Virus record (IMG/VR): IMGVR_UViG_3300023196_000043
Span: 1 to 43,991 of that record
Direction: 5' to 3' (one strand)
DNA from: a virus
Length of the DNA stretch: 43,991 nt
The notes beneath the pieces were generated by a model that worked only from the letters and a program-made list of their open reading frames with translations, was not told the DNA's origin and did no database searches. The translations under genes and the position numbers were made by a program. This document shows positions 2,591 through 37,747 of this stretch, piece after piece. Every line of letters starts with the position of its first letter. Position 1 is the stretch's first letter.

Positions 2591-3019
2591 ATGCAACAGG
2601 TAAATTTAGGCAATGCCATTAAAAATGATATGTGGATTACAGACCCCATTGAACAACCTGATCCAGATGTGCTGCCAGCACTTCCAGGTTTTCATGTTTT
2701 AATTCGCCCTGTGTCAGTTAAGTCATTGACAAAAGGCGGTATTATTATTCCAGACTCTACCAAGGACGACATGTCCTATCTAACAACAATTGGTAAGGTT
2801 TTAAGTCTTGGCGATCTTGCCTATGCAGATGAAGAAAAGTTTTCAACAGGTGCATGGTGTAATGTAGGAGACTATGTTTGCTACGGTAAACATGCAGGAA
2901 CTAAGTTATTTTACAAAGGTGTAAGGCTTATTCTTTTGTTTGATGACCAAATTATGCTTCGTGTAGAAGACCCAACTGATCTTGATCCTACATTTAATCT
3001 AGGGACAGCATCAGCTTAA
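2591..3019 (+). CDS. GroES-like co-chaperonin (Cpn10)
   Basis: Likely caps the host GroEL chamber to help fold a phage protein, most plausibly the capsid protein, comparable in role to T4 gp31. The Cpn10 fold is visible from about residue 33 to 126. A start strand (FHVLIRP) is followed by a mobile loop at 44-56 containing GGIII, equivalent to the GroEL-binding hydrophobic tripeptide. Then come IGKVLSLGD, a GDYVCYGKHAGTKL segment around 93-106 and the closing strand ILLFDDQIMLRV. At 142 aa it is longer than bacterial GroES (about 97) because of about 30 extra N-terminal and about 15 C-terminal residues. It sits directly before the scaffold/capsid unit. Confidence 0.88.
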   Translation: MQQVNLGNAIKNDMWITDPIEQPDPDVLPALPGFHVLIRPVSVKSLTKGGIIIPDSTKDDMSYLTTIGKVLSLGDLAYADEEKFSTGAWCNVGDYVCYGKHAGTKLFYKGVRLILLFDDQIMLRVEDPTDLDPTFNLGTASA

Positions 3020-4084: not shown

Positions 4085-4576
4085 ATGAACACACGAAATG
4101 AAACACGTAGTAGTCAACTTAGAGAGAACAATACTCAGGAAGAAGAATACACCTTTGAAGAGCCAAATGCTTTAGATATTCCAGATCATGTGCAAGCACG
4201 ATTTGATGCTGAAGGAATGGCTTTACGTTGGATACGAATCTCCATCAAAGGCACAGATGACATCTCAAATGTAGGTAAGAAACTACAAGAGGGATGGGTT
4301 TTCGTAACTCCTGATGAAGTTCCTGAAATGTCGATTACATCCTTCGTAAGGGAAGATGGTCGTTACCAAGGCACAGTCTGTCGTGGGGATTTAGCGTTGG
4401 CAAAGATGCCAGCAGGAAAGGTAGCGGCTAAACGGAAATTCTATCGAAATAAAGCTAATGATATGATGGATGCAGTAAATGCACAGCTAATGAATAGCTC
4501 AGATTCTCGTATGCCAATTTCCAACAATAGTAAAACTACAGTAACAAAAGGACGTAGGCCCAATTTTCAGGGTTGA
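4085..4576 (+). CDS. hypothetical head-region protein, 163 aa
   Basis: Not recognised with certainty. It has an acidic N-terminus, then a compact central part with W-rich segments (LRWIRISIKG, EGWVFVTPDEVPEM) around residues 48-80, and a basic, Ser/Asn-rich tail. Comparable proteins lie between scaffold and capsid genes in other marine podovirus-like phages, so a head-assembly role is inferred. It is preceded by GGAGATAT about 6 bases before the ATG. Confidence 0.65.
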   Translation: MNTRNETRSSQLRENNTQEEEYTFEEPNALDIPDHVQARFDAEGMALRWIRISIKGTDDISNVGKKLQEGWVFVTPDEVPEMSITSFVREDGRYQGTVCRGDLALAKMPAGKVAAKRKFYRNKANDMMDAVNAQLMNSSDSRMPISNNSKTTVTKGRRPNFQG

Positions 4577-4602
4577 CGTTTTTATAACCAAGGAGATGAA
4601 AC

Positions 4603-5217
4603 ATGTCTACTACTAAAGCATTTCGTGGTTTTATCCCTGCTCGTAAGAAGGGCGGTTCTTATAACAATGAGGCCGTCACTGATATGATTACGCTTACCTC
4701 TACAGGTCAGGCGCAATCACCTAGTAACAACATTTTCACAGGCGATCCCGTCGTACTTCCAGGTGCGAACTTTGCGACGATCTCGCCCTTTATTGCTGCT
4801 ACCTTGAAGCCTTCGGGCGTTTTCATGGGTTGCCAGTATGTTGAAAATGGCGAACAGAAGTTTGCTCGTTACTGGAATGGCGGGATTTCTGCTACGGATA
4901 TTAAATTCTTTGTCATTACTGATCCAGATCAGACCTATTACATTCAGTGTTCTTTGACGCTTTCTGCTGCTGAAGCGGCTATTGTCAGGAACTACAATGT
5001 GACGGTCAGTTCTACTGCTAGTTCAGGCAGCACGGTAACTGGTCAGTCCAGCTACTACTTGCTTGCGGCTACTGGTGCTGAAACCGAGCTTGCTGCTCGT
5101 GTTGTCGGTCGCGCTCAGTATCCTGACGAAGGTAACAATGATGCCTATCCAATTGTCGAAGTTTGGCTTAACACCCATCGGGATCGTTATGTCACTGCTA
5201 CGGCTTCAACGGCTTAA
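4603..5217 (+). CDS. putative head decoration or minor capsid protein
   Basis: A 204-aa protein with a basic N-terminus (FIPARKKGGSY), a predominantly beta-strand, Ser/Thr/Ala-rich body and no membrane segment. It lies directly before the coat gene and shares its higher GC content, with codons such as CGC, GCG and TCG that are rarer in neighbours. That suggests selection for high expression. A strong AAGGAGATG ribosome site precedes the start. Function inferred from order and expression signals. Confidence 0.6.
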   Translation: MSTTKAFRGFIPARKKGGSYNNEAVTDMITLTSTGQAQSPSNNIFTGDPVVLPGANFATISPFIAATLKPSGVFMGCQYVENGEQKFARYWNGGISATDIKFFVITDPDQTYYIQCSLTLSAAEAAIVRNYNVTVSSTASSGSTVTGQSSYYLLAATGAETELAARVVGRAQYPDEGNNDAYPIVEVWLNTHRDRYVTATASTA

Positions 5218-5234
5218 TTAGGGAGGACTAAATT

Positions 5235-6152
5235 ATGGCTATTAATAGAGCTAGTATTGCAAAAGAACTCCTTCCAGGTTTGAACGCCGTTTTTGGAATG
5301 GAGTATGGAGAGGTTAATAACGAACACGAACCTCTTTATGAAATTGAAAACTCTGACCGTGCGTTTGAGGAAGAAGTACTATTCACTGGGTTTGGCTCTG
5401 CGCCGACCAAGGGTGAGGGTGCTGCTGTTTCCTATGACGATGCACAGGAAAGTTACACTGCCCGTTATACGGCTGAAACTGTTGCTCTTGCTTTCGCAGT
5501 TACGGAAGAAGCAATGGAAGACAACCTGTATGACACGTTTGCCAAGCTTCGTGCGCGCGGTCTCGCTCGTGCGATGGCAAATACCAAGCAGGTCAAGGCG
5601 GCTGCGCTTTACAACAATGGTTTCACTGATACCATTGGTGACGGCGCTGCGTTTTTCTCTGCTGCTCATCCGACCATTTCTGATGGTAATCAGTCTAACC
5701 TTTTGGGTGCTGCCGATCTTTCGGAAGCCACTCTTGAGACTGCTCTGACCGCTATTCAGAAGATCAAGGATGATCGTGGTATTCTGATTGGTGCGAGTGC
5801 GATCTCGCTGCATGTTCCCGTTGATTCGTGGGCCATTGCAGATCGTGTTCTCAGCTCTCCTGGAAATACGCAGACGAGTGCGGCAGATGCCAACCCGAAT
5901 ACGAACGCGATTAACGCGACCCGTCATTTGGGTATGGTTCCTGAAGGCTACTACATCAATCGTCGGTTTACCGACACTGATGCGTGGTTTGTCAAGACGG
6001 ATGCACCGAACGGCACGAAGATGTTTGTTCGTTCTCCGCTTCAGACGAAGATGGAACCTGACTTCGACACTGGCAACATTCGATTCAAAGCCCGTGAGCG
6101 TTATAGCTTCGGTGTTTCGGATTGGCGTGGCTGGTTCGGTAGTGCTGGTTAA
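5235..6152 (+). CDS. major capsid protein
   Basis: Main shell subunit, 305 aa. The opening (SIAKELLPGLNAVFGMEYGE) and the acidic loop-like stretch that follows match head proteins of the HK97-fold class seen in marine podovirus-like phages; the C-terminal half has long strands (FVRSPLQTKMEPDFDTGNIR). A GGGAGGAC ribosome site lies upstream. Codon use is GC-richer than the surrounding tail genes, consistent with very strong expression, and an intrinsic terminator follows directly. No maturation-protease gene is seen nearby. Confidence 0.88.
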   Translation: MAINRASIAKELLPGLNAVFGMEYGEVNNEHEPLYEIENSDRAFEEEVLFTGFGSAPTKGEGAAVSYDDAQESYTARYTAETVALAFAVTEEAMEDNLYDTFAKLRARGLARAMANTKQVKAAALYNNGFTDTIGDGAAFFSAAHPTISDGNQSNLLGAADLSEATLETALTAIQKIKDDRGILIGASAISLHVPVDSWAIADRVLSSPGNTQTSAADANPNTNAINATRHLGMVPEGYYINRRFTDTDAWFVKTDAPNGTKMFVRSPLQTKMEPDFDTGNIRFKARERYSFGVSDWRGWFGSAG

Positions 6153-6158
6153 TTAAGC

Positions 6159-6204
6159 TAGAAGGGGAGAGTAGCTTAATGCTGCTCTCTCTTTCTACTT
6201 TTTT
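6159..6204 (+). terminator. intrinsic terminator after the capsid gene
   Basis: Bases 6159-6175 pair with 6181-6197 over 17 positions (three are G-U wobbles) around a five-base TTAAT loop, followed by six Ts at 6199-6204. It starts seven bases after the capsid stop codon. It should end most scaffold-capsid transcripts and let only part of them continue into the tail genes. Confidence 0.88.
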
Positions 6205-6222
6205 CTAATAAAGGAAATAAAT

Positions 6223-6582
6223 ATGGCTACAAATATTAAAGTTGCCCAGAACGTAAGCAGTGATGGTGCCATTATTACAGGGTTTAGGTACGTAGACAGC
6301 AACCTTACTGTTGGAGCAAACGGTGGTGGTCCTATTCCTCAGACAACCCGTATTATGGCTATCCATACATATGCTACTCTTGCTGGTGAAATTGTTATTA
6401 CTGGTTCTAATCAAATTACTAACAAGACTGCAAAGGGTACAGCCATCCGCTACAGAGTGGGTGCAACGGATTCAAATGACCAGTACATTGGAGATATGGG
6501 TGTAGGTGTTTTTGGCGTACTTAGTGTTGCCAACTCAGGCACTGGCACCATGACTCCTACGATTACTCTATATGTAGGCTAA
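6223..6582 (+). CDS. hypothetical virion protein, 119 aa
   Basis: Not recognised. The body is Gly/Thr/Ile-rich and looks like a small beta-sandwich, with no signal peptide or membrane segment. It is the first gene beyond the capsid terminator, with AAAGGA seven bases upstream of the ATG. It ends one base before the adaptor gene. A small head-decoration or head-closure role is possible but unproven. Confidence 0.6.
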   Translation: MATNIKVAQNVSSDGAIITGFRYVDSNLTVGANGGGPIPQTTRIMAIHTYATLAGEIVITGSNQITNKTAKGTAIRYRVGATDSNDQYIGDMGVGVFGVLSVANSGTGTMTPTITLYVG

Positions 6583-6583
6583 C

Positions 6584-7279
6584 ATGCCTTCTTACGCTTA
6601 TTTAAAAACTGACATTATTAATACAACTGAAAATGATTCGACAGAGTTTGAGGATCAGATTCCTAAGTTGATTGAAAAAACAGAGCTACGTCTTACTAAA
6701 GACTTAGACGATGTTGGTTTAGATGAGTATAGTGCTATTACATTTACAGCAGCTAATGCTAGTGTTGCACTTAATGACAGGGTTCGTATTGTTCGTAATG
6801 TAAACTATACAACAAGTGTCAGTGTAACTGGTGTAGCAGCCGCTTCAAAAGTAAATCTACTTCAAAGAACTTATGAATACGCTACAGACTATTGGCCTGT
6901 TGCTACATCTACGGGAACTCCCCGATACTATTCACGTAAAACAAATGGTTCTATTTTTGTAGTACCTACACCTACATCTACTTTGTCAGGTATAGTACAA
7001 ACAGCGTCACGACCACTAGCTCTTGCTTCTGCAACAGGTACAAGTGTGACAACTTCAAATTATTATAGTGAATATTGCTACGATGCTTTATTTTATGGTT
7101 GTCTTTTAGAGGCAACTATGTATATGAAAGATTGGAATACACTTCCAGTTTGGCAACAGCAGTATGAAAGCGCAATCACAACACTTAGAAATCAGGCTCG
7201 TAGAACTCGTCAAGATGATATGGAAGTTGCTGGCAGTCCTGCTGGTGGGCCTAATCCAATTATACAAGGAGCAAGTTAA
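6584..7279 (+). CDS. head-tail adaptor protein
   Basis: A 231-aa protein that probably binds beneath the portal to form the connector. The N-terminal helical part (FEDQIPKLIEKTELRLTKDL, residues 22-41) and the later YCYDALFYGCLLEATMYMKD helix around 160-180 resemble adaptors of the phage Su10/P22 gp4 type. Its stop overlaps the next start (TTAATGG). A second adaptor-like protein is at 10490-11164; which one contacts the portal cannot be told from sequence. Confidence 0.6.
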   Translation: MPSYAYLKTDIINTTENDSTEFEDQIPKLIEKTELRLTKDLDDVGLDEYSAITFTAANASVALNDRVRIVRNVNYTTSVSVTGVAAASKVNLLQRTYEYATDYWPVATSTGTPRYYSRKTNGSIFVVPTPTSTLSGIVQTASRPLALASATGTSVTTSNYYSEYCYDALFYGCLLEATMYMKDWNTLPVWQQQYESAITTLRNQARRTRQDDMEVAGSPAGGPNPIIQGAS

Positions 7280-10088: not shown

Positions 10089-10490
10089 ATGGCAGTAAAA
10101 CGTAAAGGCGGTACAGCTACCAAGCGTGACCCTGCTAAGTGGGCTAGAGCAAAGGCTAGGGCTAAAGCCAAGATGGGTGGTAAACACTCTGCTAGAGCTA
10201 TGCAGCTTGCTGTTAAATACTATAAAGATTCTGGTGGTAGTTACAAAGGTAAAAAGAAAAAAAGCAATAAACTTTCAAAGTGGAGTAAGCAAAAATGGCG
10301 CACGAAATCAGGGAAACCAAGCAAGAAGACGGGAGAAAGATACCTTCCAGAAAAAGCAATCAAAGCCCTGTCGTCAAAAGAATATGCTGCGACCACGAAA
10401 GCAAAGAGAAAATCGACTGCTGCGGGGAAGCAATACTCAAAACAACCGAAGCGAATTGCGCGTAAGGTTAAAAGATATAGGAAAACATAA
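10089..10490 (+). CDS. very basic protein with W-rich core, 133 aa
   Basis: The N-terminal half is Ala/Lys/Arg-rich with a helix (HSARAMQLAVKYYKDSGG). The C-terminal half (LSKWSKQKWRTKSGKPSK, then GERYLPEKAIKALS and KQPKRIARKVKRYR) resembles small basic domains, DUF5872-like, seen in marine phages and large DNA viruses. The GC content rises in the second half (10290-10460). The stop overlaps the next start (ATAATGG). Nucleic-acid binding is a fair inference, not shown. Confidence 0.62.
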   Translation: MAVKRKGGTATKRDPAKWARAKARAKAKMGGKHSARAMQLAVKYYKDSGGSYKGKKKKSNKLSKWSKQKWRTKSGKPSKKTGERYLPEKAIKALSSKEYAATTKAKRKSTAAGKQYSKQPKRIARKVKRYRKT

Positions 10491-11164
10491 TGGCTGTATC
10501 GGGTACATATAATTTTAATCTTGACATTGACGAGGTTATTCAGGAAGCAATGGAAATGATTGGGGGTGAAGATACTCTCGGTCACGAGCCAGCATCTGCG
10601 CGTCGTTCTATAAATATTATGTTGAAGGATTGGCAAAACCGTGGTATACTATTATGGAGTACTGGTGTATCTTCTTTAACTGTAACGGCTTCCACTACTG
10701 CTTATGATCTTTCTTCTACAACTATTGATGCTCTTGAAGTAGTGTTAAATAGAGACAGCACAGACTTACAGTTACAGCGTGTTTCTCCTGAAGAGTATTT
10801 ACTAATACCCAATAAAACACAGACAGGCCGACCATCACAGTATTCTATTCGTAGAGGTCGTGATAATCCTACATTATCTCTTTGGCCTATTCCAGATAAT
10901 TCTACAGACATTCTTAAAATAGAAACAATTAGCGAACTGCAAGATGTTAATAAGTCAGCAGAGCAAAACGCTGATTTACCTAAAAGATTTTTTCCTTGCC
11001 TAACAGCAGGGCTATCTTACTATATGTCCATGAAGCGACCTTTAGTTCCTTCTGAACGTATTAATATGTTAAAGGTTAATTATGAAGAAACATTAGCTAG
11101 AGCTATGCGAGAGGACCGCGAACGATCTAGTATGTTTGTTCGACCCAAACTTGGTTATGTTTAA
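10490..11164 (+). CDS. second adaptor / P22 gp4-like tail accessory protein
   Basis: A 224-aa protein resembling P22 gp4-type head-tail connectors. It has an N-terminal helix (IDEVIQEAMEMIGGED), then RRSINIMLKDWQNRGILLWS near residues 38-57, strands in the middle (YSIRRGRDNPTLSLWPIPDN) and a C-terminal helical pair (PERINMLKVNYEETLARAMREDRE region). The related 6584 gene lies on the other side of the basic cassette. Likely part of the connector between portal and tail nozzle. Confidence 0.65.
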   Translation: MAVSGTYNFNLDIDEVIQEAMEMIGGEDTLGHEPASARRSINIMLKDWQNRGILLWSTGVSSLTVTASTTAYDLSSTTIDALEVVLNRDSTDLQLQRVSPEEYLLIPNKTQTGRPSQYSIRRGRDNPTLSLWPIPDNSTDILKIETISELQDVNKSAEQNADLPKRFFPCLTAGLSYYMSMKRPLVPSERINMLKVNYEETLARAMREDRERSSMFVRPKLGYV

Positions 11165-29718: not shown

Positions 29719-29734
29719 GGTAGGGTTACCTACC
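29719..29734. other. small hairpin at the convergence of the two gene blocks
   Basis: Six bases at 29719-29724 pair with 29729-29734 around a GTTA loop. The 67-base gap between endolysin and small terminase holds little else; there is no T-run on either strand, so if it ends transcription it would need Rho or another factor. Confidence 0.3.
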
Positions 29735-30209
29735 CAACAGCCTCCAACGGCTCTCCTGACGCATCCTCGGCAGCGTTTTCTTCCGTTTCAAAGAACAAAT
29801 CTGCATAATCTGTTTTAGACAGTAGGTCAATGACTTTTTCTTGGCCTAATGTATTAAGGCATCCTACAATTGCAGTCTCTAGTGACTCTTGATCTTTCGG
29901 TACACCAGTATCCGCATTAGCTCCCCTAACACGCCCCAATAATTCAAGTGCTTTAATGGCACTGTTAGTATGTCCATTGGTGGCAGCGTAGCTATATTGT
30001 TTTTCAATCTCTTCAATAACATTTACATTAGTTTCTAGTTCGTTCTCTAATGTGTGAACTCGTTCTACTACTTCGTCTATCTGTAGTAATCTATAGCCTT
30101 GGTTATATGCTGACTTATCTGAGTACCCTGCTGCCTTTGCAGCTTCGGTAGCATTGCGGTGCAGCACATATGCCTGTGCAAACTTTTCCTGTTTTTGATT
30201 TAGTGGCAT
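29730..30209 (-). CDS. terminase small subunit
   Basis: Recognises the packaging site and loads DNA onto the large terminase. A 159-aa protein. Its N-terminal segment (LNQKQEKFAQAYVLHRNATE then AAKAAGYSDKSAYNQGYRLL) is the helix-turn-helix of the Terminase_2 family, followed by a helical core (residues 45-105) and an acidic tail (ETEENAAEDASGEPLEA). It is on the strand opposite to the portal and capsid genes and lies last in the - block, far from the (unseen) large subunit. Confidence 0.85.
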   Translation of the reverse strand: MPLNQKQEKFAQAYVLHRNATEAAKAAGYSDKSAYNQGYRLLQIDEVVERVHTLENELETNVNVIEEIEKQYSYAATNGHTNSAIKALELLGRVRGANADTGVPKDQESLETAIVGCLNTLGQEKVIDLLSKTDYADLFFETEENAAEDASGEPLEAVG

Positions 30210-30211
30210 TG

Positions 30212-30616
30212 TTATTTCTTCATGTTGTTACGAGCAACGCCCTTCCACTTTTCTGCTGTACGCATACCGCCAAGGCCAAGCAGCGAGAGCAGGAGCGTCA
30301 TCAAAGCTTGTGTGTCTAGTGTGGGAAGAGTAACTACTGGATACCAGATAGCCAATCCCCAACTTGCAATGGGTGCAAAGATAAACTGCCATGCCAGTGC
30401 AAAGCAACATACCCACATGATAGCTGGTCTAGCTCCGCTTACAAACACAGAGGGGTGCTTGGCCTGTTCAATGTTAGCTTGTGCTTGCGCCATATCTAAC
30501 GCAATAATCTGACTTTTAAGTTCGGACTCTAGCTTAACACGTAGGTCTTTGTCTTCAACAAACTTATCAAGAACCTTACCAGCTACTCCGACAACTGAAT
30601 CTACAATTCCAATCAT
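30212..30616 (-). CDS. holin, GTA/3TM type
   Basis: A 134-aa protein with an N-terminal helical region and then two to three membrane segments: IMWVCCFALAWQFIFAPIAS (near 65-84), continuing into GLAIW, and ALMTLLLSLLGLGGM (about 104-118) before TAEKWKG. The R-P-x-I-M-W start and the GG-R-x-x-E-K-x-K-G end match the three-TM holin family found in gene transfer agents and marine phages. It makes the membrane lesion that lets the M15 endolysin reach the wall. Overlaps the methyltransferase stop (ATGA). Confidence 0.78.
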   Translation of the reverse strand: MIGIVDSVVGVAGKVLDKFVEDKDLRVKLESELKSQIIALDMAQAQANIEQAKHPSVFVSGARPAIMWVCCFALAWQFIFAPIASWGLAIWYPVVTLPTLDTQALMTLLLSLLGLGGMRTAEKWKGVARNNMKK

Positions 30617-31365
30617 GCTATTGTTCCATCCTTCTTTTTAAGACTTGTTACTTGGGGGTACATTTCAACTCTGTATCCTTCAACAATAAGATTATCTTCT
30701 TCGTCGGGTGTGTCAAAGAAAAGATATATTTTTATATCAGGATACTTACGTGACATATCAGCAAAAAAGTTTAGCCATGCCCTTGGTTTAAAAACAGAAA
30801 TGTGAACATTCGTACCATCTGCAAACTTTTTTAGTGCGGGTACACAGGCAATGTTAAAGAACACCATCTTACCAGCATAAGAAAGAACCTCTTCTAACAC
30901 CCAGAACAAGTCGGTCTCTGGTACATGCTCCATAACATCAGTACATATTACAGCATCAAAGGTTCCCTTCTGCCACTCGTCAGGAAGAACTGAATAAGGC
31001 TTGTAACCTGGATCGTAAAGGTGAAAAGAGTCGAGATTCCAAAGCTCTCCGAGAGGCTTGTCAATTTCATTTGTTAGCTTTGTGTATTTGTCTGTGTATA
31101 GTATACCCTTTCCTGCACCATAGTCTAGCAGATTGATGCAGTCATTTTTTTCTAGGTAACTTCCAATAATATCTACATATTTGAGAAGGCTTTTGCCATT
31201 AAACATTCCTTCAGCAGACTCGTGCATAACTTTATACTCAGACAAAAGTTCTTGATATTTTTCTGATGCGTTATGTTTATTATACTCAGTAGTATACTCT
31301 ATCTCTCGGTCGGGAACATGGCCCCACTGAGAAATTTTTGTATCTACCCAATTATCATCAGCCAT
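30613..31365 (-). CDS. class I SAM-dependent methyltransferase
   Basis: A 250-aa protein starting at the ATG at 31365, which has AAGGAT seven bases upstream; an earlier in-frame ATG lies deep in the previous gene. Motif I is LLDYGAGKG at about 79-87, the acidic motif follows near 120-130, and motif IV is ICTDVMEHVP near 138-147, typical of Methyltransf_11/23-like enzymes. The substrate is not evident. It overlaps the three-domain glycan protein by eight bases and so probably works in the same pathway, for example methylating a sugar. Confidence 0.82.
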   Translation of the reverse strand: MADDNWVDTKISQWGHVPDREIEYTTEYNKHNASEKYQELLSEYKVMHESAEGMFNGKSLLKYVDIIGSYLEKNDCINLLDYGAGKGILYTDKYTKLTNEIDKPLGELWNLDSFHLYDPGYKPYSVLPDEWQKGTFDAVICTDVMEHVPETDLFWVLEEVLSYAGKMVFFNIACVPALKKFADGTNVHISVFKPRAWLNFFADMSRKYPDIKIYLFFDTPDEEDNLIVEGYRVEMYPQVTSLKKKDGTIA

Positions 31366-33742
31366 TATAGTAATCCTTAAATTTAGGGCGGTCATCCCGC
31401 TTCTGATTTATTTTCCAGAGATCAGCTACCATTGTGTTTTCTCCATGAAAATCTAGCACACCATCCATGCCCTGATCTGCAAAAACTTTTTCACAGTCTT
31501 GAGCCATAGCTAGCAGTTCACCTGTAGTCCAATATGTTTTTTCTTCAACATTAACTTCAATGTACTTAGGCTTTGGTACTTCGCCACCCTCTACATCACC
31601 TGTTGTTTCTGTTTTTTCTTTATCTGATGGCTCTTCTCTGCAACAGTCGAAGCCCCACAGATGTATATTTCTAAAGCCCATCGTATGAAACACTCCAATA
31701 GACCGCATTGCTGCACAAGTACCGCCAGTAATAAGCGTAGCTCCTTGCGGAATACCAAGGCTATCTTCTACCTTAACTTGCTGATTGACAATCTCTTTGC
31801 CTTGCTCATGCTCCTGCCTAAGTGAGTCAGTATAGGCATGCCAGCCATATATAGAAGCTTTCTTTTCTAGAAGAAACTCAGTAACAGATGGGTCGGTCAT
31901 AGATGCTACAAAAAACTTTGTGCTTGTGTCAAGATTTTCAAACAAAGTTTGTCGAATAATGTTGTGTGTACTTTTACCTGTAATAGGTCTAGGGTCCAGT
32001 ACTACACAGCCCCACGGCTTAATACCATTGGCAAGTAGGTGAGGATAGGCATGTTTAACTGTTAGTACTTTAGCATCAGGATGCTCGTGTAAAAATCTTT
32101 TAAGTGCTTGATAGTCTAGGTATGGCCCTGCTGAAACAACAACTCCTGTTTCTTTGTGGGCAGGGTGCTTTGTAACCCATTGGTTGTCGCCAATAAGCTT
32201 CATGTTAGTTTGAATGTTGTTATTAATATACTCTCGCGGCACAGAGTCACGCGGGTTTACAATAATAGGAACACGCTTGAGAGTATCTGGCACATCTTCT
32301 AGGTTTTCGTTATTAAGAATAACTGCTAGATGCGTATGCCCACCGTCAGCTACTCTGTCACCAGAGGGAAGCACATACTTTCTGACTATACTCCGATCAT
32401 CGAATGTGGTCCAACCGCCTTCAATCTCAGGAGTTTTCTCCATCTTCTTAGTAGCCACGCCATCAAAAATCTTCTTAATGCCCTGCGCTTTTTCATCTGG
32501 TATTTTGTCATCGTCGTCCTTTGTAAAGTAATGATCCATAACAACTACTGGAACATCTTTTAAATGCTGATACTCAATCTCTACTGTTTCTTTGCTATTG
32601 CCGCTACCAATCAAAGCAAAGTTAATTTTTTCTTTATTAGTTGATGTAGTTTTAAAGTACATAGATAGGGTATCTCGCACATTCCCTTTAACTAAATCAA
32701 ATGAAAAGTCTTTGCCCTTGTTCTTCTGCATATGCTCTCTAAACTCATTGAGCCTATTCTCAACTGCCAACATTTTATTATGTGGCTTGGCATTGAACTC
32801 TACCTCATCTGTCTCAGACGTAGCATCTTCAAACAAATCAAAGCCAACATAATGCACAGTATCTGTATTGTCAAACGCTGCAAGAGCCATTTCAATAGCA
32901 CGGCCAGCGTTCCAAGTTCCTGTTTCAAGAATAGTAGAAGGCTTATAGAACCTAATTAGGTCTGCAAGTTGGCGATACCTGTTGGGAAGAATATCTGGAG
33001 ATGTTTCAGTATCAGATAGCTGAAGTATTCTGTTACCATCTTTGTCTCTAAGAGCAGCACTTTTTTTATCTCTAAGACAAGCAAACAAAGCATTGATGTA
33101 AGACTTTTCATTAGAAAGTTCTTCGTATCGCATACCATGTGCAACATAAATAGTACGCAGTCTATTAAGAATAAATGTATCGTGCCACTCTCTGTAGTTT
33201 AGAAACTCACCTGAGATAAACGCGCCTCTAAAATCTCCTAACAAGTCTACTGATGTCTGCCTAGATAAATTAAAGGCCATTAGATATTCTGTATTTCTAA
33301 GACAAAGCATATCAACCTTGTCTTCTTCGTCTGGGAACAGCTTGTCTAGTTCCTTGGCAGTAATTTTTTTCTTAGCTATAACATCAGGATCAATCCAAAC
33401 CATCCATGCGTCTGCATTATTAAACGCACACTCAGTCAGGGCAAGAACGCGAGGCAAGAACTTATGTGGGTTTAGGATATCCTGATAAGGAATCTGTCCA
33501 CCTTCAGTGCCATCATGTTCCTTATACTCTTCTAAGAATTTTGAATAATCTTCTAGAGTTTCTAGGTTATGATAGAAAATGTTTGGTGCTTGTGGCAGGG
33601 AGTACTTACTAATATCTATCTGATAATAATAGCAATGAAATTCAAAGCTTGGTTCCCAAATTTCTTTAAATTGATTTAATACTGTATTGGCTGTTTGATT
33701 TAAAATGTCTTCATTAAAACAAGTTACAATTTTATATTTCAT
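31358..33742 (-). CDS. three-domain protein: glycosyltransferase, methyltransferase-like, DUF115/MptE-like
   Basis: 794 aa if started at 33742, where ATG overlaps the stop of the GT8-like gene by 11 bases (upstream ATGs at 33754 and 33805 are less likely). Residues 1-230 are GT-A-like with a WIDPD acidic motif at 117-121. Residues about 255-430 are a Rossmann methyltransferase-like domain (ILETGTWNAG at 271-280). Residues about 530-740 resemble DUF115/MptE-like domains (VVVSAGPYLD, LTVKHAYPHLLANGIKPWG, then GGTCAAMRSIGVFHTMGFRN and LWGFDC) found in Maf-type flagellin glycosylation proteins. Likely builds or modifies a surface glycan; target unknown. Confidence 0.75.
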   Translation of the reverse strand: MKYKIVTCFNEDILNQTANTVLNQFKEIWEPSFEFHCYYYQIDISKYSLPQAPNIFYHNLETLEDYSKFLEEYKEHDGTEGGQIPYQDILNPHKFLPRVLALTECAFNNADAWMVWIDPDVIAKKKITAKELDKLFPDEEDKVDMLCLRNTEYLMAFNLSRQTSVDLLGDFRGAFISGEFLNYREWHDTFILNRLRTIYVAHGMRYEELSNEKSYINALFACLRDKKSAALRDKDGNRILQLSDTETSPDILPNRYRQLADLIRFYKPSTILETGTWNAGRAIEMALAAFDNTDTVHYVGFDLFEDATSETDEVEFNAKPHNKMLAVENRLNEFREHMQKNKGKDFSFDLVKGNVRDTLSMYFKTTSTNKEKINFALIGSGNSKETVEIEYQHLKDVPVVVMDHYFTKDDDDKIPDEKAQGIKKIFDGVATKKMEKTPEIEGGWTTFDDRSIVRKYVLPSGDRVADGGHTHLAVILNNENLEDVPDTLKRVPIIVNPRDSVPREYINNNIQTNMKLIGDNQWVTKHPAHKETGVVVSAGPYLDYQALKRFLHEHPDAKVLTVKHAYPHLLANGIKPWGCVVLDPRPITGKSTHNIIRQTLFENLDTSTKFFVASMTDPSVTEFLLEKKASIYGWHAYTDSLRQEHEQGKEIVNQQVKVEDSLGIPQGATLITGGTCAAMRSIGVFHTMGFRNIHLWGFDCCREEPSDKEKTETTGDVEGGEVPKPKYIEVNVEEKTYWTTGELLAMAQDCEKVFADQGMDGVLDFHGENTMVADLWKINQKRDDRPKFKDYYNG

Positions 33743-34511
33743 TAGTAAGTCCATGTAAGAGTAAGTAAGAGTAATCCATATTCCACTCGGCAGCGTACTG
33801 ACCATCTATGGATCGACGGCATTGCCAATCCTTAAACCAAGGACCACCAGTAGTAAAGTGTACGTTACGTGCCTCAAGGTCTTCAGGAGAGTGGTTGTCT
33901 AGCCAATTCCAATCCTCAGTAATCTTACCAATATCTGAAGCCTTGTCTGATAACCAGCCAAACTTATGTAGCCATGAGCCTGAGTTAGAATTAATTTCGT
34001 TTACTGTTAGCTTCTGATGTGCAGGATGTCCACAGTTCCATAACACAAAGCTCGACCAGTTTTTTCTAAAGTAATTTTCTTGTAGCTTACCATCCATCTT
34101 ATGTGTATCTTTAGGCGCGTAGTCATGCTGCACACAGAACAAAGGATAGAAGTCTGAATAATCTTGTGTTGTATAGTCCTCGAACAGTTCGATAATATCT
34201 GTTCTCATATACATATCACTGTCCATATACAAAGCCCATCCTTCATACATGTTAAGTGCTGGAACTAAGAACCGAGTGAAGCTAAAGTCTGTAGAGAATG
34301 GTCGCCCATCCTTGCTGTCAATAAACTGATCGTCTACAATATCAAACTGCCTATAGTATAGACCCATGCGTTCCATTGTAGGTCTCTTGATAGGTAAGAT
34401 TCTAATAGGCTCTGATGCTGTTCGCTCTATAGAAAACTTACATACATCATAAGCTGTCTGTTCGCGTGGATCGTATCCTATGTATACAGTAAATGGTAAT
34501 TTTTTAGCCAT
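33732..34511 (-). CDS. GT8-like glycosyltransferase
   Basis: A 259-aa GT-A-fold transferase: the opening strand VYIGYDPRE, FTRFLVPALNMYEGWALYMD near 78-97 with the metal-binding D97-S-D99, and the late motif VHFTTGGPWF near 216-225, which corresponds to the H-x-x-G-x-x-K/P-W region of glycogenin/GT8 enzymes. It transfers a sugar from a nucleotide sugar to an unknown acceptor. Its Shine-Dalgarno candidate AAAGGAT (34552-34558) is separated from the start by a hairpin. Confidence 0.8.
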   Translation of the reverse strand: MAKKLPFTVYIGYDPREQTAYDVCKFSIERTASEPIRILPIKRPTMERMGLYYRQFDIVDDQFIDSKDGRPFSTDFSFTRFLVPALNMYEGWALYMDSDMYMRTDIIELFEDYTTQDYSDFYPLFCVQHDYAPKDTHKMDGKLQENYFRKNWSSFVLWNCGHPAHQKLTVNEINSNSGSWLHKFGWLSDKASDIGKITEDWNWLDNHSPEDLEARNVHFTTGGPWFKDWQCRRSIDGQYAAEWNMDYSYLLLHGLTNEI

Positions 34512-34560: not shown

Positions 34561-34971
34561 TTAGTTAATTTTAATAGTCTTGGGTTGCTTTTCTTTTGGA
34601 ACTTCTCTTTGAAGAGACAAAGTTAAAATACCATTCATAAGTTTAGAATCAACAACTTCCATATGCTCACTCATCTTAAACCTTTTATAGAAATCTCTTT
34701 CTGCAATACCGTTGTATAAGTTTTCAGTTTTATTTTTTGTATCTCTGCTACCTTTGATAGAAACTAAACCATCTTCAAAGGTAATTGATAATTCTTCTTT
34801 AGTAAATCCTGCTACAGCAAGACTTAATTTAAAATTATTATCGTCAATCTTGGTAATGTTATGTGGTGGATAGTTACTACTAAACTGATCTTTGATATTT
34901 TCCAGTTCCTGAAATAAAGAATCAAACCCAATTGCATAGTTACTTAATACTGTTCTTGTAATATTTGGCAT
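34561..34971 (-). CDS. small heat-shock protein (HSP20 / alpha-crystallin)
   Basis: ATP-independent chaperone of 136 aa. I place the start at 34971, with AAAGGAG about 10 bases upstream; an in-frame ATG at 35010 falls inside the leader. The alpha-crystallin domain spans about 40-130: AGFTKEELSITFEDGLVSIK near 56-75, then RDFYKRFKM, then NGILTLSL. The C-terminus KTIKIN carries the I-x-I motif used in oligomer assembly. It has its own promoter, so it is probably made at a high level to protect folding phage or host proteins. Confidence 0.9.
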   Translation of the reverse strand: MPNITRTVLSNYAIGFDSLFQELENIKDQFSSNYPPHNITKIDDNNFKLSLAVAGFTKEELSITFEDGLVSIKGSRDTKNKTENLYNGIAERDFYKRFKMSEHMEVVDSKLMNGILTLSLQREVPKEKQPKTIKIN

Positions 34972-34998
34972 AATATTTTTCTCCTTTGGCGAGTTAGT

Positions 34999-37070: not shown

Positions 37071-37362
37071 TTTCTTGATCTCCTGTGTCTATAACTTTTA
37101 AAGCAAAGCTTCGTACCTTGCGTGGCTCAAGTCCTGCATAGGTACAGACAGTATCAAAGTCGTCGGCTGTAACACCAATAGAAGCAAAGAACCAAGCCCG
37201 TGCTTGATCCCTTTCCAAGGTAATACTGCTTGCCTCTTCTTCTCGTTCAACCTTGAGCAAGTCTAGCAACGCCTGTAAGATAACAGATATATATAAAACT
37301 TTGTGTGGGTTCTTATTTACTTGATCGTATAAAGATTCAATAAGCTCTTCATTCATCTTCAT
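37039..37362 (-). CDS. hypothetical conserved protein, 107 aa
   Basis: Mostly helical. The C-terminal segment ARAWFFASIGVTADDFDTVC followed by TYAGLEPRKVR (residues about 54-84) recurs in marine phage proteins and looks like a small helix-turn-helix-type fold. Function unknown. It overlaps the GIY-YIG gene by 14 bases and the DUF3310 gene by 32, so all three are translated together. Confidence 0.6.
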   Translation of the reverse strand: MKMNEELIESLYDQVNKNPHKVLYISVILQALLDLLKVEREEEASSITLERDQARAWFFASIGVTADDFDTVCTYAGLEPRKVRSFALKVIDTGDQENVRRRISLLL

Positions 37363-37747
37363 TAAAGTCCTGTACTGGTCTGTAGAACTTACCGCCTATC
37401 CAGTTGTTATAGTAGGCTGGCTCGTCCGTTCCTTCTAGTTTTGCAGTAAGGACATGTCGTATAACTTGGTGGTAACACTCATAATACTTTAAGCTTCGTT
37501 TGTTTTTAAACTGTCCTAAGATTTTAAATTTAAAAGTATCCTTACCAAACTTATCTATGTCTTCTTTAAGATGTTTGCTAGAACCAGCATAGACTTTCCA
37601 GTTAGATTCTTTTTTCTTTTTACCTTTACGATAAGTCCAGTACTGCTTGCACCCTATGTAAGCCTTCTTAGTTTTTGTGTTGGTGATGCAGTATACAAAA
37701 CCAAAATACTTTTGTATGTCTAGCTTCCTATCGTAGTCCCAGTGCAT
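37349..37747 (-). CDS. GIY-YIG nuclease
   Basis: A 132-aa protein made mostly of the GIY-YIG domain: FGFVYCITN at 16-24 is the GIY position, KKAYIGCKQYW at 28-38 is the YIG position (degenerate first motif FVY). The WKVYAGSSKHLKEDIDKFGK segment lies near 50-69, followed by FKFKILGQF, and a Glu is provided near 90. It starts directly after the exonuclease stop (TAAATG). It could be a homing-type endonuclease without an intron or a DNA-processing enzyme; no gene is split here. Confidence 0.82.
   Translation of the reverse strand: MHWDYDRKLDIQKYFGFVYCITNTKTKKAYIGCKQYWTYRKGKKKKESNWKVYAGSSKHLKEDIDKFGKDTFKFKILGQFKNKRSLKYYECYHQVIRHVLTAKLEGTDEPAYYNNWIGGKFYRPVQDFNEDE

Follow-up and report, generated by a model that had tools for sequence, protein, structure and literature searches.

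Among the closest described systems are the Maf/PseD enzymes (DUF115, Maf_flag10, PDB 5mu5), bacterial proteins that act on flagellin. Maf enzymes act on protein, and CbMaf takes CMP-Neu5Ac and CMP-Kdo (PMC11339370). These enzymes are cytoplasmic and carry, ahead of DUF115, a Rossmann-like N-terminal domain that has been described as degenerate; they contain no GT-A domain. In C. acetobutylicum, CA_C2196 joins a methyltransferase and DUF115 in one chain and lies in a modified-sugar locus with spsE/spsF (PMC4000134). A related fold occurs in the pterin pyrophosphokinase MjHPPK/MptE (PDB 8sd5), a single-domain protein of the archaeal pterin pathway. The viral example is A064R of chlorovirus PBCV-1, which combines two glycosyltransferases and a methyltransferase in one chain for the capsid glycan, with a separate methyltransferase, A061L (PMC9614988). 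A literature search on DUF115 or MptE-like domains in phages returned nothing relevant.

The window, the whole 43,991-nucleotide stretch of viral DNA analysed here, contains a three-domain protein that shares features with each of these systems. The gene, its domains and its neighbours are as follows:

31358..33742, minus strand: three-domain protein P0001, 794 aa, defined by the ORF list, Pfam, AlphaFold2, Foldseek and locus comparison
33038..33742, minus strand: domain 1, GT-A glycosyltransferase fold, residues ~1-235, with a Foldseek GT6 match and a DxD-like WIDPD at 116-120
32303..33025, minus strand: domain 2, class I SAM methyltransferase fold, COMT/Methyltransf_24-like, residues ~240-480, with altered catalytic motifs IGSGNS and MDHYF
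31397..32290, minus strand: domain 3, Maf/DUF115 (PF01973) glycosyltransferase-like, residues ~485-782, Pfam E 5.2e-14, Maf 5mu5 Z 17.6
33732..34511, minus strand: GT8-like glycosyltransferase gene, phrog_28018 family, 3' end overlapping the fusion start
30613..31365, minus strand: class I methyltransferase gene, phrog_24759 (match 6e-24), Methyltransf_23-like
30212..30616, minus strand: holin (GTA_holin_3TM), the next gene downstream, Pfam 3.1e-14
29730..30209, minus strand: terminase small subunit, Pfam 2.9e-15

The fusion ORF starts at 33742 (MKYKIV), its open frame extending beyond this point to 33805, and relatives begin at the same MKYKIV/MSYR position. A dN/dS of 0.06-0.16 in each of the three domains, together with their presence in a single ORF at 102 of 102 distinct uncut lineage loci, identifies the fusion as a genuine gene and no chance ORF. 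Conservation is lowest in domain 1 and highest in domain 3, mean pairwise identity rising from 0.50 in domain 1 to 0.65 in domain 2 and 0.71 in domain 3. The full-length AlphaFold2 model, built from 41 relatives, has a mean pLDDT of 83.5 and a pTM of 0.53, values indicating that the domains are modelled well but their mutual packing poorly. Foldseek matched this model to Maf (E 2.7e-8), COMT-type O-methyltransferases (4e-6) and GT6 galactosyltransferases (~1e-5). PF01973 is the sole above-cut-off Pfam match in the protein, and sequence profile searches of each of the three domains against the PDB gave no significant match, so that the assignments of domains 1 and 2 rest on the fold search. The family assignment of the three predicted domains is firm. 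An earlier sequence-only reading had proposed GT-A, methyltransferase-like and DUF115/MptE-like domains in one chain, and structure prediction, fold search and PF01973 bear this out, with none of the three folds missing. Its placement of ILETGTWNAG at residues 271-280 was correct, and its DUF115-like C-terminal domain (530-740) agrees with the PF01973 match; the WIDPD motif is present, one residue off the proposed 117-121. The strand, which that reading left unstated, is the minus strand.

Compared with the described systems, domain 3 has the same predicted fold as Maf/PseD, of the PF01973 type, and as MjHPPK, and the fusion is likewise predicted to be cytoplasmic, with a Rossmann-like domain ahead of DUF115. 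Unlike Maf, however, the phage protein has a GT-A domain and keeps an intact SAM motif. CA_C2196, likened here by description, is bacterial, has two domains only, and no GT-A domain is reported for it. A064R resembles the fusion in being a three-domain viral chain that begins with GT-A and includes a second glycosyltransferase and a methyltransferase, and in the action of a separate second methyltransferase (A061L) on the same glycan. It differs in its GT-A/GT/methyltransferase order, its families, the absence of DUF115 and its origin in a eukaryotic virus; moreover, its activities are proven, whereas the phage fusion is known from sequence and predicted folds. The best viral structure match is UniProt A0A6J7X5Q0 (uncultured Caudovirales phage, 714 aa; 817 columns, 26% identity), likened to the fusion by that match and annotated merely as a methyltransferase domain containing protein. 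Two-domain methyltransferase+DUF115 proteins and the viral enzyme A064R are already described. What is apparently new is this combination of known enzyme families: a chain that runs GT-A, methyltransferase, Maf, an operon of fixed make-up around it, and a methyltransferase site that has been rebuilt while the SAM motif next to it stays intact.

The cassette is a core part of its lineage, not an optional one. The protein query retrieved 26 viral loci, an alignment at least 247, and domain 3 at least 541. Among 104 distinct domain-3 loci, 102 have all three domains in a single ORF, one runs into a contig end and L096 alone is genuinely split; the fusion is intact in every distinct uncut viral locus of the lineage (102/102). 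Leaving L096 apart, the GT8-like gene precedes the fusion in 97/97 lineage loci where this position is visible, and the methyltransferase gene follows it in 77/77. As these loci had been found via the fusion itself, the locus test was repeated with the neighbouring RNR gene as the anchor, on a sample limited to the 80 closest RNR relatives, so that its outcome holds for this lineage alone. All 52 loci with 1.5 kb or more of downstream sequence had the GT8-like gene and domain 1, and all 29 with 4.5 kb or more had domain 3 too. The stretch after RNR in Roseobacter phages CRP-3 and CRP-212 (RNR 73% identical) lacks the cassette, and tblastn against 50,697 isolated phage records found no relative of the fusion. 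Among uncultured phages the arrangement is not unusual, being fixed in a large and probably marine lineage of them.

Two variations were seen among the loci. In most aligned loci the RNR upstream of the cassette shares 73-96% identity with that of the window; in L024, L092, L093 and L095 it shares only 23-25%, with gene order unchanged and RNR apparently swapped in place for a distant type. The GT8-like gene occurs as a tandem duplicate ahead of the fusion in L055 (2482-3168 and 3210-3992) and L069 (5338-6183 and 6235-7014).

Outside the lineage, related modules occur in split or two-domain form. In the phage contig L096, which was binned with a Myxococcales MAG, GT8-like, GT-A, methyltransferase+MptE and methyltransferase are four separate genes; this split cassette sits between terminase and portal and includes a radical SAM gene. 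Its 4403-6668 segment holds an extra FkbM-like methyltransferase ORF (FkbM by eye) and the radical SAM/SPASM protein. The Rhodospirillaceae MAG G003 carries a methyltransferase+GT-A fusion in reversed order, plus stand-alone copies of each domain. The reversed fusion at L097 (589-2895) follows another methyltransferase-like ORF; its contig, part of a Rhodospirillaceae MAG, is apparently chromosomal. Across 385 genomes of G003's class no fusion was found, and separate or two-domain relatives occurred only in G003 itself. Viral contigs searched for relatives of these two loci yielded one identical contig for L096 and none for L097. Related glycosyltransferase and methyltransferase genes are clustered in CcrColossus, DLP6, Mosig and two Manatee Spring phages. 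In CcrColossus an MptE/sialyltransferase-like gene, a GT8-like gene and a methyltransferase gene adjoin a tail gene, and Stenotrophomonas phage DLP6 has methyltransferase, GT8-like and GT29 sialyltransferase-like genes side by side.

The operon itself had been described from sequence as a complete glycan-modifying unit with overlapping frames near the lysis genes. Reading frames do overlap at both fusion-gene junctions; at the downstream one, the likely methyltransferase start at 31365 (open frame to 31395) overlaps the fusion stop. The neighbours are also broadly as claimed, the cassette adjoining the holin and terminase small subunit genes and not capsid or tail genes. The upstream phrog_28018 family has no named function; the window's GT8-like protein has no Pfam match, and its L096 homologue matches Glyco_transf_8 at E 2.3e-4, just under the Pfam cut-off. 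The three genes form a compact unit, but "complete" goes too far: neither a CMP-sugar synthetase nor NeuB was found in 15 lineage records (44-63 kb, with no completeness estimate), so the donors would have to be supplied by the host. The same 15 records yielded no GtrA flippase, integrase or thymidylate synthase. A clear membrane segment is absent from all three proteins of the cassette, the highest 19-residue hydropathy of the fusion being 1.08.

The fusion may be a cytoplasmic, soluble single-chain glycan-assembly enzyme that uses host-made donors, most likely to glycosylate a virion protein, a proposal that we regard as evenly poised. In its favour are the folds and PF01973, the fixed and core cassette with its overlapping frames, the recurrence of the same modules as neighbouring genes in other phages, the soluble character of the chain, the lack of GtrA, integrase and thymidylate synthase in the 15 records, and a relative of the GT8-like gene near KdsA/KdsB in S-SCSM2R. 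Against it stand the altered motifs of domains 1 and 2 and the position of the operon beside holin and terminase small subunit. We infer the donor sugar, the order of reactions, the methyl transfer and the virion target along the following lines. Domain 3 would most likely transfer a sugar of nonulosonate or Kdo type, taken from a CMP donor that the host makes, this choice of donor being a guess by analogy with fold relatives. Domain 1 would attach a further sugar, and domain 2 would bind SAM and modify a sugar, which its rebuilt active site probably methylates. The fusion and its two operon partners, the GT8-like enzyme and the other methyltransferase, would assemble a short modified glycan in the infected cell's cytoplasm, with a virion protein as the most likely acceptor. 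An acceptor in the cytoplasm fits best, and this location, the action of Maf on protein, the capsid precedent of A064R and the C. acetobutylicum case favour virion glycosylation. Among the targets suggested earlier (host LPS, flagella or the virion), a virion protein is the likeliest. No flagellin was identified among the window ORFs scanned. If the virion reading is true, the fusion is a phage counterpart of chlorovirus A064R, and Maf-type glycosylation, known mainly from flagellin, enters phage biology. Fixation in a large uncultured lineage suggests that the cassette likely does something required in every infection.

The main rival to virion glycosylation is that the same enzyme set alters the host surface (LPS or capsule) during infection, for example to keep freshly released particles off debris or to exclude other phages, which is possible, if rather doubtful. 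It would accord with a GT8-like relative near KdsA/KdsB in the cyanophage S-SCSM2R and with the place of the methyltransferase+DUF115 protein within a bacterial modified-polysaccharide locus (PMC4000134). However, the cassette lacks a membrane segment, is core and not variable, and is accompanied by neither a GtrA flippase nor an integrase in the 15 records, which carry no completeness estimate. Lysogenic conversion is disfavoured by the absence of integrase and GtrA from these records, and DNA modification by that of a thymidylate-synthase-type enzyme.

Within the fusion, active sites were compared across 63 lineage sequences under 95% identity. Domain 1, whose model matches GT6 alpha-1,3-galactosyltransferase-type GT-A enzymes (Foldseek E ~1e-5), has D or E at the first DxD position in 62 of 63 sequences and keeps the second D in only 15, the window protein having WIDPD. 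Its homologues in L096, L097, L103 and L110 carry DAD. Some GT-A enzymes function without DxD, and judged from the residues the catalytic status of domain 1 is uncertain.

Domain 2 superimposes on COMT with a Z of 16.8 over span 240-479 (VIA; rmsd 3.0, 176 aligned). Its SAM motif residues E273, G275, T276, W277, N278, G280 and D302, which cover motif I and the acidic position after strand 2, are invariant in all 63 sequences. In the same 63, DGGHS has become GSGNS or GGGNS, with D replaced by G379 and H by N382, and in 62 of them the DD motif has become DH, D403 being kept and the second D being H404. Homologues in L096, L097 and L108 have the canonical DGGHS, and canonical homologues have Methyltransf_24 matches. 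The methyltransferase-like fold proposed from sequence is thus present, with its SAM motif, and the standard site is not, the metal/catalytic motif being replaced throughout; because the DGGHS and DD motifs are altered, domain 2 is called methyltransferase-like and not a Methyltransf_24 enzyme. With DGGHS lost everywhere and the second DxD residue of domain 1 rarely kept, domains 1 and 2 might not run standard reactions.

These changes bear on the possibility that domain 3 alone is active and that the GT-A and methyltransferase domains now serve for binding or as a scaffold, in the manner of Maf's degenerate Rossmann-like N-terminal domain. The replaced motifs and the gradient of conservation toward domain 3 are in keeping with it, as is the way the Maf part ahead of Maf_flag10 falls on domain 2: the whole-model match spans 236-778 (domains 2 and 3), although an rmsd of 15 makes this superposition a loose one. 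On the other hand, the SAM motif is invariant, the fusion-specific residues G379, N382, T470, H471 and L472 are equally so, and dN/dS is low in every domain, which makes a single active domain unlikely. Invariant SAM motif, invariant fusion-specific residues and low dN/dS together suggest that the activity of domain 2 was changed and not lost, and we read its site as probably rebuilt rather than decayed. The fuller picture is speculative and held with low confidence: a one-chain assembly line in which Maf-type, GT-A and SAM-binding domains, the last with a new catalytic site, attach a modified sugar of nonulosonate or Kdo type to the phage's own virions, and in which domain 2 chemistry may differ from ordinary methyl transfer. 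That the methyltransferase site is changed in every sequence poses a clear biochemical question.

In domain 3, PF01973 matches residues 509-702 with 52.8 bits against a cut-off of 34.6. Taken alone, the domain has the Maf flagellin glycosyltransferase 5mu5 as its nearest solved structure (Z 17.6 over 233 residues), followed by MjHPPK (Z 14.2), SteA (11.7) and GT29/GT42 sialyltransferases (~8); in the full model, MjHPPK reaches a Z of 16.1 over 496-767 (VIA; rmsd 3.2, 197 aligned). That domain 3 is a true MptE-type pterin pyrophosphokinase, for a nucleotide/cofactor pathway or DNA hypermodification, as the Pfam name and the MjHPPK fold match could suggest, is highly improbable given the higher score of Maf, the PseD best match of the L096 homologue (1.6e-6, far under that model's cut-off), the glycan-type enzymes adjoining the fusion and the lack of a thymidylate-synthase-type base modifier in the 15 records. 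Histidines 564, 635 and 766 are invariant in domain 3 and may be candidate catalytic residues.

A tRNA, sought in the window for host prediction, was not found. Other window genes encode an HSP20 (34561-34974, Pfam 3.2e-18), a Cpn10/GroES-like protein (2591-3019, Pfam 5.6e-9) and two distinct SU10_adaptor-like proteins in one structural region (6584-7279 and 10490-11164). A SegE-type GIY-YIG endonuclease (37349-37747, Pfam 3.8e-34) lies near the RNR gene.
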